Below, one piece after another: positions 3,072 through 16,275 of a stretch of 64,000 bases of DNA. The DNA is from Sphingomonas ginsenosidivorax (GTDB lineage Bacteria; Pseudomonadota; Alphaproteobacteria; Sphingomonadales; Sphingomonadaceae). The notes beneath the pieces were generated by a model. It did no database searches. It was not told where the DNA came from and was given only the letters and a program-made list of their open reading frames with translations. Position numbers and translations under genes: made by a program. The stretch covers positions 3,724,501 through 3,788,500 of the forward strand of contig NZ_VOQR01000001.1 in assembly GCF_007995065.1 (NCBI RefSeq). Reading direction: 5' to 3'. How positions within the stretch are numbered: the stretch's first letter is position 1; each line of letters opens with the position of its first letter.

Positions 3072-4613
3072 TTAGCGCGACCGGCGGCGCAGGGCAACGG
3101 CCATCGCGAGCAGCAGTCCGGCGATGATCGCGGCCATCGCGTTGCCGGTCCGCGAGAACAGTGTCGGCACCAGCGCGGGGGGCAAGGGCCGCTCGATCGC
3201 GCCGGCGGTCTCGTGCGGCACGGTCGCGATCAGCCGGCCGTCCGCGCCGATGATCGCGGAGATGCCGGTCGGCGTCGCGCGGACGATCGGCAGCCCTTCC
3301 TCGATCGCGCGCATCCGCGCCTGCGCCAGATGCTGCGGCGGGCCCCAGGTCCCGAACCAGGCGTCGTTGGACGGATTGAACAGCAGGCGCGGGCGATGCG
3401 CGCGGTCGACCACCTGGCCCGAGAAGATGATCTCGTAGCAGATCTGCATCCCGATCGTGCCGAACCCGGGCAGCGTCAGGTTGCCCGGCCCCGGACCCGA
3501 GGTGAAGTCGATGTCGCCCGGCACCAGCCGCGCGAGCCCTAGCGGCTTCAGCAGCCACGGCATCGGCAGATATTCGCCGTACGGCACCAGGTGCGCCTTG
3601 TCGTAGCGGCCTCGCAGCCGCGCCTGCCCATCGAGCGCGAACACCGAGTTCGCCGCGCCTGAGATCGCGTCTTCGCGGTCGAACTCCAGCGCGGTGCCGC
3701 CGGTCAGCAGGATGTCCTGCGGCCCGAGCAGCCGCGCGATCCGGCGGCGCAGATAGAGCGGGCTCGACCAGTCATAGGCGTAGGGTGGATACCCATCCTC
3801 GAGATAGTCGCGCACCACGCCCTCGGGCCACACCACCAGCCGCGGCTGCGCGCCGGGCTTCCCCGACAGTGCCTCGAGCGCCGACAGGACGCGTTCGCCG
3901 TCCGACTCGCTGCGATCCTCCTGCCCGATATCGGGCTGGACGATGCGGACCAGCGGCGCGCCGGGCGCGGCATCGGGGGCGTTCGTCCACAATGCCGACA
4001 GCGCGGCGAGCCCGAGCAGCGGCGCGACCACAGCCGGCAGCGTGTAGCGGCGGCGCAGGAGCAAGAGCACCGCGCCCGCCGCAACGATCGTCATGCCCGA
4101 CAGCGCATAGGTCCCGATCCACGCCGACAGCCGCGCGACCCCGATCGCGGGCAGCCAGACGACGCCGAGCGGATCCCAGGCATAGCCGGTGAACAGCACG
4201 CTGCGCAGCCACTCGGTCGCGATCCACGCCGCGCCGAACACCAGCACGAACGCGGGATCGAGGATGCCCTTGCGCGCGATCCGCCAGGCGAGCGCGGCGG
4301 CGATCATCGGGAACACCGCCAGGTAGAGCGCCAGCCCGACCGCGGCGAAATAGCCGAGCACCGGCGGCATCGCGTCCTGGAAGTCGAACGCGTGCTGGAA
4401 CCAGTTGTTGTTGACCGTGAAATGCCCGAGCCCGAACAGCCACCCGCGCACGGCGGCGCTGCGCAGCGAGGGGGCACCGTGGACGAGGCCGATCCACAAT
4501 CCGACCGCGACCAGCGTCAGCGGCCAGAGGTCGAGCGGCGCGAACCCCGTCGCGGCGATCGCGCCGAGGAGGACGGAGGCAAGGGCGGGGGAGGTGAGGA
4601 GAGCGCGGGTCAC
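3072..4613 (-). CDS. lnt: Apolipoprotein N-acyltransferase Lnt
   Basis: 513 residues from a GTG at 4613. An N-terminal block of about six membrane helices is followed by a periplasmic nitrilase-fold domain. The catalytic triad is visible: E264 in VVWPEGVV, K339 in YDKAHLVPYGEYLP and C392 in GMQICYEIIFS. Lnt transfers an acyl chain to the N-terminal cysteine of lipoproteins, the last step of lipoprotein maturation in the inner membrane. The frame is open for 26 codons further upstream, but those residues are proline/arginine-rich and unlike the family, so the GTG preceding TRALLTSPALASV is preferred. It precedes metK on the same strand. Confidence 0.93.
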   Translation of the reverse strand: MTRALLTSPALASVLLGAIAATGFAPLDLWPLTLVAVGLWIGLVHGAPSLRSAAVRGWLFGLGHFTVNNNWFQHAFDFQDAMPPVLGYFAAVGLALYLAVFPMIAAALAWRIARKGILDPAFVLVFGAAWIATEWLRSVLFTGYAWDPLGVVWLPAIGVARLSAWIGTYALSGMTIVAAGAVLLLLRRRYTLPAVVAPLLGLAALSALWTNAPDAAPGAPLVRIVQPDIGQEDRSESDGERVLSALEALSGKPGAQPRLVVWPEGVVRDYLEDGYPPYAYDWSSPLYLRRRIARLLGPQDILLTGGTALEFDREDAISGAANSVFALDGQARLRGRYDKAHLVPYGEYLPMPWLLKPLGLARLVPGDIDFTSGPGPGNLTLPGFGTIGMQICYEIIFSGQVVDRAHRPRLLFNPSNDAWFGTWGPPQHLAQARMRAIEEGLPIVRATPTGISAIIGADGRLIATVPHETAGAIERPLPPALVPTLFSRTGNAMAAIIAGLLLAMAVALRRRSR

Positions 4614-4692
4614 GCCGGTTCTATGGAGGCGGGGCGGGGGCGGGGCAATGATCCGGTGTCGCCCGACGCACGTTCGTCCCCGCCCCCCCAAT

Positions 4693-4775
4693 CGTCATCC
4701 CAGCGCAGGCTGGGATCTCTCCGGGGCGGGTGCCGCGGCCCGAACCAGGAGATCCCAGCCTTCGCTGGGATGACG
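4693..4775. repeat. Paired palindromic intergenic repeat, family A
   Basis: Two opposed hairpins: CGTCATCCCAGCG with its partner at 4693-4716 and the mirror image GAGATCCCAGCC... CTGGGATGACG ending at 4775. The outer arms pair with each other over about 25 bases. A second copy of the same family lies at 55357-55440. It is located between lnt and the VOC gene, which diverge. Confidence 0.8.
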
Positions 4776-4852
4776 GGGGAGGTGAGCGGCGGACGCACAA
4801 CGTCACCGCGGGGGGAGTGACGACCGCCACCCCCCACGGTATCACGCCCGCC

Positions 4853-5272
4853 ATGACTCTCCGCCCGTTCCATCTCGCCTTCCCCGTCCACGACCTCGCC
4901 GCGGCGCGCGCCTTCTACGCTGGCACGCTCGGCTGCCGCGAAGGCCGCAGCAGCGACGCGTGGATCGACTTCGACCTGTTCGGGCACCAGATCGTCGCGC
5001 ATCTCGATCCCGCCGCACGCGCGGTCGCGGTGTCGAACCCGGTCGACGGCCACAGCGTCCCCGTGCCGCATTTCGGCGTGGTGCTGACGATGGCCGACTG
5101 GGAAACGCTGTCGCAGCGCGTAGCCGCCGCCGGCGTGGCGTTCGGGATCGCCCCGCACATCCGCTTCAAGGGGCAGGTCGGCGAGCAGGCGACGATGTTC
5201 TTTTGCGATCCGTCGGGCAACGCCTTGGAGTTCAAGGCGTTCGCAGACGATACCCAGCTTTTCGCGACCTGA
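4853..5272 (+). CDS. VOC-family (glyoxalase/bleomycin-resistance fold) protein
   Basis: 139 residues covering one full vicinal-oxygen-chelate domain with two beta-alpha-beta-beta-beta modules. Likely metal ligands are the His of RPFHLAFPV near the N-terminus, the His in VPHFGV around residue 75 and the Glu in [10 protein letters not shown] near the C-terminus. The family includes glyoxalases, dioxygenases and isomerases, and the substrate cannot be told. The ATG at 4853 starts the conserved domain directly. It is followed after nine bases by the PHA-system gene, so they may share a transcript. Confidence 0.85.
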
Positions 5273-5281
5273 AGGACCCCC

Positions 5282-5584
5282 ATGGCCAACCCGATCACGC
5301 TCGACATCCCGCACACGCTTGGCAAGCAGGCGGTCCGCGCCCGGCTCGAGGGCGGCGTCGCCCAGGTCGTCGACAAGATTCCCGGCGGCGGCAACGTCGT
5401 CCACCGCTGGGAGGGCGACACGATGCACTTCACCGTCCAGGCGATGGGCCAGACGATCGCCAGCAGCGCGACGGTGTTCGACGACAAGGTCCACGCGGTC
5501 GTCGACCTGCCCGGAATCCTCGGTCTGTTCGCCAGCAAGATCAAGGGCGCGATCGAGCGCGAGGCGCCCAAGCTGCTGAAATAA
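5282..5584 (+). CDS. Polyhydroxyalkanoic acid system family protein (PHA_gran_rgn type)
   Basis: 100 residues matching the short protein family found with polyhydroxyalkanoate genes: IPHTLGKQAVRARLEGG near the start, a central WEGDTMHFTVQAMGQTI and an Ala/Lys-rich end (KIKGAIEREAPKLL). Members are thought to sit on or regulate PHA granules; the molecular role is not established. The start is nine bases after the VOC stop with an AAGGA motif at 5272-5276. Other PHA-related genes in the window are the PhaC-like enzyme and phaR near 38 kb, which are not linked to this one. Confidence 0.75.
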   Translation: MANPITLDIPHTLGKQAVRARLEGGVAQVVDKIPGGGNVVHRWEGDTMHFTVQAMGQTIASSATVFDDKVHAVVDLPGILGLFASKIKGAIEREAPKLLK

Positions 5585-5612
5585 CGTCGCTCGTAGCGGA
5601 CCATACCCCCCT

Positions 5613-5683
5613 CCGTTCGCCCTGAGCGAAGTCGAAGGGGAGGCCATGAGCGACAGTTCTTCGACTTCGCTCAGCACGAACGG
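5613..5683. repeat. Paired palindromic intergenic repeat, family B
   Basis: A 25-base arm at 5613-5637 (CCGTTCGCCCTGAGCGAAGT...) is the near-perfect reverse complement of 5659-5683, with two mismatches. It sits between converging genes, where it could fold into a strong hairpin and act as a terminator for either side. Confidence 0.8.
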
Positions 5684-5707
5684 CGTTGGGGATGGCGCGC
5701 TAGACGC

Positions 5708-7033
5708 CTAGCGCGCGCTGACCCGCCAGATCCGGTTCCCCACATCGTCCGCGACCAGCAGCGCCCCGGTCCTGTCCGCGATCACGCCCACCGGCCGCCC
5801 CTGCGCGTTGCCGTCCTTGTCGAGGAACCCGCCGACCACCTCGACCGGCTTGGCGTTCGCCGCCGGGAACCCGCCCGCCGCGAACGGCACGTACACCACC
5901 TTGTAGCCCGACACCGGCTTGCGGTTCCACGACCCGTGCTCGCCGACGAACGCACCGCCCGCAAAGCGCGCGCCGAGCCTGGTCTCGTTCGCAAACGTCA
6001 GCCCCAGCGCCGCGACATGCGCGCCCAGCGCAAAGTCCGGCCGCTTCGAATATTCCTGCAGCGCCGGGTTCTTCGGCTCGACGCGCGCATCGGGATAACC
6101 GCCCCAATAATACCAGGGCCAGCCGAAGTGATCGCCGAACTCGATCTGCGTCAAATAATCGGGCGCCAGATCGGACCCCAGCTGGTCGCGCTCGTTGACG
6201 ACGGTCCACAGCTGGCCCGACGCCGGGTTGATCGCCATCCCGACCGGGTTGCGCAGCCCGGCGGCATAGATCCGCCAGTTCTTGTCCACGGGCCAGACCT
6301 GCAGGATGTTGGCGCGGTACTTCTCCGCCGCCATGCCGTTCTCGGCGATGTTCGACGACGAGCCGACCGAGACGTACAGCGTCTTGCCGTCCGCCGCGGT
6401 GACGACGTTGCGCGCCCAGTGGTTGCCGCCCGGGTTGAGCTTGATCACCAGCTCGGGCTTGGCGGTGATCTTCGTCGCGCCCTCGACATAGGGCACGCGG
6501 ACCAGCGCATCGGTGTTCGCGATGTACAGCTGCCCGTCCAGCAGGGTCATCCCGAACGGCGAATTGAGCCCGGTCATGAACGCGCTCCGGGTCTCGGCGA
6601 CGCCGTCCCCGTTCGCGTCGCGCAGCAGCGTGATGCGGTTCGCCGACGGCGTCCCCGCGCCGGCGCGCCCCATCAGGATCTTCATCACGAACCCGGTGAT
6701 CCCGCCACCCTCGCGCGGCGGCGAGTTGGTCTCGGCGACCAGCACGTCGCCATTGGGCAGCCGGTACATCCAGCGCGGATGGTCGAGCCCGGTCGCGAAC
6801 GGCTGCACCTGCAGCCCCGCCGCGACCGTCGGCCGGGCCGCGCCCTGCCAGCCGACCACCTTGGCAACGTCGACCGTCGGGATCACCTGCTCGCGCGGCG
6901 CCGCGATCTGCGGCCGCTTGCCGGTGACCGCGTCGGCGGGAAGTTTCGCGGTATCGGGCCAGGCGAGATAGACGACGCCCCCGGCGATCACGAGCAGGAT
7001 CAGGCCGAGCACGATGAGGATGTGTTTGCGCAT
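5708..7033 (-). CDS. PQQ-dependent sugar (sorbosone/glucose) dehydrogenase family beta-propeller, membrane anchored
   Basis: 441 residues. One N-terminal membrane anchor (HILIVLGLILLVIAGGVVYLAW) is followed by a six-bladed beta-propeller of the GSDH family. Typical pieces are TGLDHPRWMYRLPNGDVLVAE, GLNSPFGMTL, GGNHWARNVV, GLRNPVGMAINP and the closing VADDVGNRIWRVS. Such enzymes oxidise sugars in the periplasm using PQQ, though some relatives lack activity. The ATG at 7033 was chosen because it starts the membrane anchor; the frame is open far upstream but that sequence lacks family character. No PQQ synthesis genes are in the window. Confidence 0.85.
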   Translation of the reverse strand: MRKHILIVLGLILLVIAGGVVYLAWPDTAKLPADAVTGKRPQIAAPREQVIPTVDVAKVVGWQGAARPTVAAGLQVQPFATGLDHPRWMYRLPNGDVLVAETNSPPREGGGITGFVMKILMGRAGAGTPSANRITLLRDANGDGVAETRSAFMTGLNSPFGMTLLDGQLYIANTDALVRVPYVEGATKITAKPELVIKLNPGGNHWARNVVTAADGKTLYVSVGSSSNIAENGMAAEKYRANILQVWPVDKNWRIYAAGLRNPVGMAINPASGQLWTVVNERDQLGSDLAPDYLTQIEFGDHFGWPWYYWGGYPDARVEPKNPALQEYSKRPDFALGAHVAALGLTFANETRLGARFAGGAFVGEHGSWNRKPVSGYKVVYVPFAAGGFPAANAKPVEVVGGFLDKDGNAQGRPVGVIADRTGALLVADDVGNRIWRVSAR

Positions 7034-10990: not shown

Positions 10991-11005
10991 GAACAGAAGT
11001 AGAAC
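10991..11005 (+). promoter_or_regulatory. LexA (SOS) box upstream of uvrA
   Basis: GAAC-AGAAGTA-GAAC, an exact match to the alphaproteobacterial LexA box GAAC-N7-GAAC (direct repeat, equivalent to GTTC-N7-GTTC on the other strand). It ends nine bases before the uvrA start. uvrA is a classic SOS gene, so the placement is convincing. Confidence 0.8.
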
Positions 11006-11013
11006 CCTCCGAT

Positions 11014-13911
<2,898 letters not shown>

Positions 13912-13930: not shown

Positions 13931-14773
13931 ATGTTTTACATCCACGTTCTCAGGATAAAATGTGAAGGTTTACCCCAGGGCGATCTCCTCAGGTCAAGAG
14001 GTAATCCGTCTTCTATAATTGTCAGATCGATTGAATCAAAGCCAACCGCGGATGTCGGACGTGGCTCAGAATGGCATATCGGGAATGTCAAAACTATTGA
14101 AGAAGGCGGGGTGTCTTTTGCCATGGGTCGTACTCAGGCTGTCACTACGCAGCAGTTCGATCAAAATACCCATGATTTTGTGGAGGAGGAGGCGATGCGT
14201 GCTCCATTTACATTCGGGGTGTTTGATCCGGATCTGCAAGTGTGTGGTGTAATTCGTAAGGCTGGTGTGTCAAAAAGCTCAAGCGAAATCGCCGGTAAGC
14301 TCCAAACCCTCCTGAATGCTGCCCCCTTTGCGAGGGAAGCAAATTCAGTAATTGTTGTTGAAACAATCTCAGATCCGGTGAATTTCTTGGACGCTATAAA
14401 ATCGGCAAGGGCTGTAATCCGATTTGGATTCACTGTTTCAAGGCCCAATCCGTTAGATGTGGAGCGTTTGATACAGGGGCCCGCCAAAGAATTTACTCAA
14501 AAAGTATCTGGTGAGCGGACAAGGGTGGAAACGGAAGGTGAGGATCTCGACAAAGAGGCTATTGAGGATGTCATAAATGCCGTTGCTGCCGATGGGGAGG
14601 AGGCTGCGGCAACAATCAGGCCTCAAGATGGTGGGCCGCCAAGGCGAGTTCATCTGTGGGGGAATCCGGTAACGGAACGCGTTGAGTCCGACCCAAACAT
14701 CTCGGTATTGGTATCTGTTCTCGATGCCGCTCGGCGTGGTTATCGACGGATACGGGGTGGCTCGCAGGCCTAA
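13931..14773 (+). CDS. Islet gene 1: soluble protein of unknown function (possibly DUF4747-like)
   Basis: 280 residues, no signal peptide or membrane helix. An N-terminal beta-rich part begins FYIHVLRIKCEGLPQGDLL; a mixed middle has FTFGVFDPDLQVCGVIRKAG; residues 168-180 read TVSRPNPLDVERL; the charged C-terminal third ends PPRRVHLWGNPVTERVES and YRRIRGGSQA. The layout recalls the DUF4747 family, but this is a weak impression. Base composition is far from its neighbours: two hand-counted lines have 24/60 and 28/60 G+C, against above 60% around it. An AGGGGG ribosome-binding site lies four bases before the ATG, only 19 bases after the uvrA stop. The stop overlaps the next start (TAATG), so the pair is translationally coupled. 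Function unknown. Confidence 0.8.
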   Translation: MFYIHVLRIKCEGLPQGDLLRSRGNPSSIIVRSIESKPTADVGRGSEWHIGNVKTIEEGGVSFAMGRTQAVTTQQFDQNTHDFVEEEAMRAPFTFGVFDPDLQVCGVIRKAGVSKSSSEIAGKLQTLLNAAPFAREANSVIVVETISDPVNFLDAIKSARAVIRFGFTVSRPNPLDVERLIQGPAKEFTQKVSGERTRVETEGEDLDKEAIEDVINAVAADGEEAAATIRPQDGGPPRRVHLWGNPVTERVESDPNISVLVSVLDAARRGYRRIRGGSQA

Positions 14774-15279
14774 TGGATAACTTTTGGAAATGGCTTGTCA
14801 GGGGCTCGAGAAAAGGGGCCCGGGGCTTCTGGAATATTATAAATTGGTTCTTACTTGTTCATGTAGGAATTGCGGCTGTCGCTACGGTATTGATCGTGGG
14901 CGATCCTACGTTGTTTGCTCAAAAGGCATTATTCCCCGCGTCCTCGGTTTTGATCGGTCTTTCGATGGCGTGGACCACACGCGCGTCGACAATTTTGCAG
15001 ACTAAGGACCTCCGCGAGGCGTTATTCACTGAAGAACGGCCAGCCGAAGATTATATATTTGGCTTTCAGCTATCAATTCTCATAGTCGTCATTATGATTA
15101 TCTATGTCGCCATAATGGCGGGCGGAGGGCTGAGGATAGGTCTGTTGGGAGAGCCGTTTGACGGCTACGCGTCGGCGTTCTGGATGTATTTTCTTATTAG
15201 CGTGACTTTGCGCGAGTGCTGGGGGGTCATTAACGCCACTAATATGATTAGCATGCTAGAATACATTAGAACGAAGTAA
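14773..15279 (+). CDS. Islet gene 2: four-helix membrane protein of unknown function
   Basis: 168 residues. A basic, aromatic N-terminus (MDNFWKWLVRGSRKGARGFW) is followed by four predicted membrane helices at about residues 21-43, 52-69, 97-118 and 134-152. A charged loop (TKDLREALFTEERPAEDY) joins helices 2 and 3. No known family is recognised. G+C is low (24/60 in the line at 15061). It starts within the stop of the preceding gene (TAATG at 14771-14775). A soluble partner coupled to a small multi-helix membrane protein is the layout of several phage-defence systems in which the membrane protein is the effector; this is inference only. A transport or signalling pair is equally possible. Confidence 0.8.
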   Translation: MDNFWKWLVRGSRKGARGFWNIINWFLLVHVGIAAVATVLIVGDPTLFAQKALFPASSVLIGLSMAWTTRASTILQTKDLREALFTEERPAEDYIFGFQLSILIVVIMIIYVAIMAGGGLRIGLLGEPFDGYASAFWMYFLISVTLRECWGVINATNMISMLEYIRTK

Positions 15280-15743: not shown

Positions 15744-16043
15744 CTAAAACCCCACCGCCACCCGCAACGCCGCATTGATCCGCCCCTGCCACCCCGGGCC
15801 GCCCTCGCGGAACTTGGCGAGCACGTCCGGGTCGATCCGCAGCGTCACCTGCTGCTTGGCGCGGTCGCGCAAGGGCGGGCGGCCCTTCACGACGCCGTTC
15901 GGCCCGAGATAGCCCGTCGCCGGGCGGATCACCTTTCCGCCGATGGAAATCTCGGCGACGTCCGCCAACTCTTCGGTCAACTCGGGCGCGTCGTCGGCCG
16001 GATCAAGCCAGGCGGTGCCGGTAGCGGGCGTATTCTCGGTCAT
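15744..16043 (-). CDS. brnA: BrnA antitoxin
   Basis: 99 residues. The C-terminal ribbon-helix-helix segment KQQVTLRIDPDVLAKFREGG followed by PGWQGRINAALR is diagnostic of BrnA. A more variable acidic N-terminal part binds the toxin in this family. BrnA neutralises BrnT and represses the shared promoter. It overlaps the end of brnT by 41 bases, starting inside it, which is normal for these operons. Both genes look intact. Confidence 0.9.
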   Translation of the reverse strand: MTENTPATGTAWLDPADDAPELTEELADVAEISIGGKVIRPATGYLGPNGVVKGRPPLRDRAKQQVTLRIDPDVLAKFREGGPGWQGRINAALRVAVGF

Positions 16044-16275
16044 TGGCCTTCCTCGTCGAAATCACGCGGCGATCGGTGTCCGTCTCGGTCCAGATCACGG
16101 CAACCAATCGCTCGCCGAGCAGTCCGTACGTCGCGAAATACGGCTCGGGGTAGGCGAACCGCGTATCCTCGAATTCGAAGACCGGCCCGTCGAACACCGT
16201 CTGCGCGTCGGCGAAATCGATCCCGCGATCCGCCAGCGTCAGCGCGCGTTTCAAGGGATCGAACTCGATCTCCAT
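16003..16275 (-). CDS. brnT: BrnT toxin (RelE-like ribonuclease)
   Basis: 90 residues, the usual length. BrnT folds like RelE and cleaves RNA, stopping growth when unpaired. Family hallmarks are MEIEFDPLKRALTLADRGIDF at the start, then AQTVFDG, GLLGERLVAVIWTETD and the C-terminal RVISTRKANDREYARYR. The ATG at 16275 has GAGG six bases upstream. brnT precedes brnA, as in Brucella. A ten-base palindrome upstream is a likely operator for BrnA. Confidence 0.92.
   Translation of the reverse strand: MEIEFDPLKRALTLADRGIDFADAQTVFDGPVFEFEDTRFAYPEPYFATYGLLGERLVAVIWTETDTDRRVISTRKANDREYARYRHRLA

Follow-up and report, generated by a model that had tools for sequence, protein, structure and literature searches.

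A probable RexAB-type abortive-infection module at a defence hotspot behind uvrA in Sphingomonas ginsenosidivorax

Directly behind uvrA in Sphingomonas ginsenosidivorax lie two coupled genes with a low guanine plus cytosine (G+C) content, and the question raised by this locus is what such a pair does and how it came to be there. The genes were analysed in a stretch of 64,000 nucleotides (the window; contig NZ_VOQR01000001.1, positions 3,724,501 to 3,788,500), in which gene 1 (13931..14773, plus strand) is an open reading frame (ORF) for a soluble protein of 280 amino acids (aa), proposed as sensor or activator, and gene 2 (14773..15279, plus strand) an ORF for a membrane protein of 168 aa, proposed as a RexB-like effector. 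The islet is probably a chromosomal RexAB-type abortive-infection module, gained at a recombination hotspot behind uvrA; this reading is based on the predicted structure and on the gene layout. The stop codon of gene 1 and the start codon of gene 2 have one base in common at the junction CCTAATGG, and both the product lengths and the TAATG overlap given in the first-pass annotation of this DNA were verified; likewise, uvrA (11014..13911, plus strand), with which the pair may share a transcript and whose 3' end constitutes the hotspot, does end 19 nucleotides (nt) before gene 1. The low G+C content reported there is evident over the whole pair (0.495, with 0.503 in gene 1 and 0.481 in gene 2) in comparison to a mean of 0.687 (standard deviation 0.027, minimum 0.604) for same-length stretches outside it; when the window is scanned in 50-nt steps, no other 1.35 kb of it has so low a G+C content. 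Third-position G+C is 0.45 in gene 1, 0.57 in gene 2, and 0.94 in uvrA.

Profile searches agree with the earlier statement that neither product belongs to a nameable family: the best E-values, all negligible, were 0.56 in Pfam, 0.07 in NCBIfam, and 0.57 in PHROGs, and PADLOC gave no match. In a large protein database protein 1 has 63 relatives and protein 2 has 71; the organism is given for few of them, and those named are sphingomonads and their relatives. One relative of protein 2 (P0118) bears the public name "magnesium-transporting ATPase (P-type)", which is implausible at 136 aa.

The AlphaFold2 model of protein 1 (predicted local distance difference test, pLDDT, 82.9; isoelectric point 5.56) has the two-domain split fold of lambda RexA (8twq), which is its top Foldseek match in the PDB (E 5.7e-6) and is followed by RdgC; protein 1 is predicted to be a RexA/RdgC-fold protein. 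The faint resemblance to DUF4747 (PF15931) mentioned in the first-pass annotation does not correspond to a Pfam match, although RexA-like proteins do carry this label in the literature. PF15931 is absent from protein 1 in a Pfam scan at E 1 and was found in 0/36 scanned members of its family, including P0044, a relative with a precomputed PF15931 label, and no match was obtained when a DUF4747 alignment was set against the family; protein 1 is therefore not assigned to DUF4747. In the model of protein 2 (pLDDT 88.6) long helices span residues 25–40, 45–74, 91–116, and 129–167, and the family-averaged hydropathy has peaks near all four, two of which are modest; the four membrane helices announced earlier are supported by both, and single-sequence hydropathy at a strict cut gives two strong segments only. 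Protein 2 fits the RexB-type layout, being small, having four predicted membrane helices, and being encoded beside the A gene.

How the pair would act is inferred, from sensing to activation, membrane damage, phage defence, and read-through from uvrA; in particular, analogy with lambda RexAB, RexABpp, and CarolAnn/Sbash suggests that protein 1 is the infection sensor and protein 2 the membrane component that it activates. Protein 1 would dimerise on DNA or on DNA-protein intermediates and thereby sense the phage, and in the activated state it would open protein 2, a four-helix inner-membrane protein; the membrane would then leak or depolarise, with arrest of growth and of phage production. The soluble sensor with a membrane effector that had been guessed from form is supported by the RexA-like predicted fold, while the layout, considered uncharacterised at that time, is of a known kind, the RexAB type.

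The closest comparison is with lambda RexA/RexB, which has the same A-B gene order, sizes of 279 and 144 aa versus 280 and 168 here, the fold predicted for protein 1, and four membrane helices in the B protein; it differs in having no detectable sequence similarity and in lying beside the phage repressor and not behind uvrA. The RexABpp system of Pseudomonas putida (PP_5643-5644), compared by its published description, also pairs a soluble RexA-like protein that binds DNA with a membrane protein of four helices; in contrast, it resides in a cryptic prophage and an HHpred match to RexA is reported for it, whereas hhalign gives none for protein 1. Compared in the same way, the DUF4747-labelled actinophage systems CarolAnn gp44/gp43 and Sbash gp30/gp31 consist of a cytoplasmic and a four-pass membrane protein for which abortive infection is proposed, but they are phage-borne, have A-proteins of 370–372 aa, and depend on particular, named genes of the phage that attacks. 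In sequence profiles no link between the pair and RexA appears: hhalign found no match of the protein 1 family to a single RexA sequence or of the protein 2 family to one RexB sequence, both alignments being shallow (effective number of sequences, Neff, 2.3 for protein 1).

The distribution of the pair is narrow and concentrated at one site. A gene 1 match occurs in 9/295 genomes of the genus, in seven of them whole, in G237 in two pieces, and in G239 decayed; gene 2 occurs in eight, every one a gene 1 carrier, and G239 alone is without it. In the carriers the A and B genes co-occur as neighbours on the same strand; the one-base overlap is that of the pair in the window. All eight genus pairs lie behind uvrA and on its strand, at a distance of about 20–42 nt in six cases, 279 nt in L011, and 1,068 nt in L013, and in the last two loci uvrA remnants intervene between uvrA and the pair. 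A sample of the order (n = 396) adds four gene 1 carriers in which gene 2 adjoins gene 1: G442, with the pair directly behind uvrA and both genes broken (gene 1 interrupted by a stop codon, gene 2 split in two); G425, with the pair about 1.5 kb behind uvrA; G412, with the pair at another site; and G629, with the pair at the edge of a contig that does not reveal the site. The rarity of gene 1, the occurrence of gene 2 with it, and the absence of a housekeeping match are in line with the accessory, phage-defence-like pair that had been suspected.

The uvrA 3' end is a defence hotspot in Sphingomonadaceae, because variable low-GC islets at this fixed core locus exceed those at the metK and clpA controls. 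A uvrA match was present in 119/121 genus genomes searched, and the uvrA region was taken from 100 of these 119; the 19 left out include the pair carriers G000, G002, G097, and G155, so that the pair is not in the hotspot count. Islets were defined either by a 900-nt segment below 55% G+C or by a gene-body G+C exceeding that of the islet by at least 0.12, and 98 loci with at least 1.9 kb downstream were counted (L070 and L132 were dropped). The 900-nt segment was found within 1.9 kb behind uvrA in 62/98 loci, at 2.5–4.4 kb behind it in 2/93, and inside uvrA in 0/98. By the gene-body difference, islets follow uvrA in 61/98 genus loci, in 14/20 sister-genus loci, and in 3/20 loci from other families of the order (20 each, hand-picked from the 88 genomes with uvrA among 89); the same measure gave 0/20 behind metK and 0/20 behind clpA, each control set being 20 of 23 genus genomes searched. 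Core-gene defence hotspots with variable cargo at a fixed locus are known in Escherichia coli and Pseudomonas aeruginosa, and the site described here is alike in this respect; unlike them, it is anchored by uvrA, which is preceded by a LexA-type box, and in part of its islets a second uvrA tail stands beside the cargo. In the open-licence PubMed Central papers searched, by listing and start of abstract, no uvrA hotspot is described.

The cargo of these islets differs almost everywhere: 102 low-GC proteins, 95 from the 100 sampled genomes and seven from L031, L034, and L035, group into 90 clusters (blastp, 1e-4). At E 0.001 they matched 466 PADLOC models (the best among the matches listed, 1.8e-189) and 93 proteins of the metK/clpA flanks matched 17 (best 4.4e-21), a ratio that is overstated because the ORF rules differed (low GC versus codon-position GC) and single ATPases match up to 143 models. 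Twenty cargo proteins, hand-picked and not random, were also scanned singly; 14 had a PADLOC match at 1e-3 and 11 at 1e-8, including bSEFIR, HEC-01A, NsnA, PDC-S19 twice, PDC-S60, and AriA-like ATPases, and some of these are broad ATPase or helicase matches. From the sister genera 10 of 20 low-GC proteins were scanned (the larger ones were picked, a 419-aa protein of L198 being left out), and five were matched, by the reverse-transcriptase systems retron RT_VI, Drt8 (two proteins), and RT_UG13a and, weakly, by PDC-S59; four of the five matches are at 1e-8 or better. Eleven of the 30 singly scanned proteins had no PADLOC match. Judged by these profile matches, uvrA cargo is enriched in defence-type genes, and the neighbourhood survey places the pair, as anticipated, in a variable site rich in such genes; the position behind uvrA, correctly recorded by the first-pass annotation, weighs more than was supposed in it. 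Eight loci (L134, L122, L042, L188, L190, L191, L192, and L197) carry islet proteins of 419–743 aa with no PADLOC match at E 0.001, which are candidate undescribed defence genes.

Other uvrA islets resemble the pair in organisation. In L035 (G206, 5248-6774) a protein of 287 aa and a 219-aa partner with membrane segments, encoded at low GC behind uvrA together with a uvrA-tail remnant, form a second Rex-like pair in this slot; here the first protein is a true PF15931 member, and the two pairs are unrelated by sequence and have no profile relation. For the other three DUF4747 matches, no uvrA was present in the flanks taken. L113 (G143, 3329-4929) possibly contains another Rex-like pair, with a 313-aa PDC-M53A match (2.3e-11) and a 219-aa partner with four hydrophobic segments, also behind uvrA. 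Two-gene uvrA islets in which a 274–310-aa protein is followed by one of 146–204 aa were seen in L041, L044, L050, L077, and L094.

Traces of the way in which cargo enters may be preserved at the site. Of the 110 loci with a uvrA stop, 10 have another fragment of the uvrA tail further downstream, and in nine of these ten, with the exception of L064, it ends 11–122 nt before the next low-GC ORF; three of the ten (L011, L013, and L035 with its DUF4747 pair) carry Rex-like pairs. Because second uvrA tails adjoin cargo, it is inferred that incoming cargo is joined to the uvrA tail of its donor and enters by recombination with the resident tail. The studied module would have been gained at this site, where exchangeable defence-type systems, mostly of one or two genes, land. 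In L123 (G033) a 424-nt second copy of the tail, 93% identical, stands right before the cargo, perhaps as a result of recent insertion.

A connection with DNA damage is suggested by a LexA-type SOS box, GAACAGAAGTAGAAC (10991..11005, plus strand), just upstream of uvrA. It is the sole GTTCN7GTTC in the window, no more than chance would give; GAACN7GAAC, the alphaproteobacterial form of the LexA operator, is found in the 130 nt that precede the N-terminal motif of uvrA in 100/100 genus and 20/20 sister-genus genomes, and before uvrA in 3/15 genomes of other families, with five more not located. The motif is very likely a LexA operator, since in the genome of S. ginsenosidivorax it also precedes recA and lexA. 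Two overlapping copies stand just before lexA (L221) and suggest tight autoregulation. In the gap between uvrA and gene 1 a scan detected neither a promoter-like nor a terminator-like site, and this, together with the box, means that same-strand cargo could be SOS-induced via read-through from uvrA. The largest low-GC ORF is on the uvrA strand in 32/62 islets and on the opposite strand in 28/62, two having no such ORF, and the 28 opposite-strand islets speak against SOS induction as a general rule for the cargo. It is a tentative and rather doubtful extension that Sphingomonadaceae keep a slot for interchangeable defence cargo behind uvrA, itself under SOS control, with cargo entering via the uvrA tail and same-strand cargo, the pair studied here included, inducible by DNA damage, so that damage made by phages or by restriction would arm abortive infection without a dedicated regulator.

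The main rival division of labour is that of the mycobacteriophage Butters system, in which gp30 alone blocks phages and is attenuated by gp31. The layout is alike, and by this account protein 1 would be the antiviral effector and protein 2 a membrane anchor keeping it inactive until infection; it is unlikely here, given that all seven whole copies of gene 1 in the genus are accompanied by gene 2 and that, among five Rex-like systems listed in a 2026 paper, Butters alone works so. The pair could instead be a toxin-antitoxin or stress pair not aimed at phage, such as a membrane toxin with a DNA-binding partner tuned to DNA damage via uvrA, as the toxin-like membrane partner, the LexA-type box, and the adjoining brnTA genes would allow; this is improbable at a site that holds many relatives of recognised antiphage genes and for a RexA fold, which has a precedent in phage exclusion.

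The islet might also be carried along inertly, as DNA that was acquired horizontally, is decaying, and does nothing at present; broken copies do exist in G239 (decayed and lacking gene 2), G237 (gene 1 in two pieces), and G442. For the islet studied here this is very improbable, in that gene 1 is whole in 7/9 genus carriers and the 36 relatives of its product, at 49–98% identity, keep many invariant columns in common. The RexAB-type reading is preferred to these three.

A chromosomal RexAB-type family recurring at one site would extend the Rex principle to settings other than prophages. The 2026 paper names only five RexAB-like systems, all of them phage- or prophage-borne; the literature also notes RexA homologues that are orphans and lie outside prophages, operons of the CarolAnn type in genomes of bacteria, and a DNA-damage-activated kinase-repressor pair upstream of 17 DUF4747/CarolAnn operons. 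The hotspot also supplies a rule for finding new antiphage genes, namely to read what follows uvrA in Sphingomonadaceae, where part of the cargo has no known family and many islets, being short, could be cloned in one piece; if the SOS link is true, abortive infection armed by DNA damage becomes directly testable.

The 3' flank of the islet, outside the proposed system, is occupied by the toxin-antitoxin genes that had been said to follow the pair; these are brnA (antitoxin; 15744..16043, PF14384, 1.3e-19) and brnT (toxin; 16003..16275, PF04365, 4.5e-18), both on the minus strand and thus opposite to the pair. Homologues of brnA are located 3' of uvrA in 28/109 other loci and those of brnT in 24/109.
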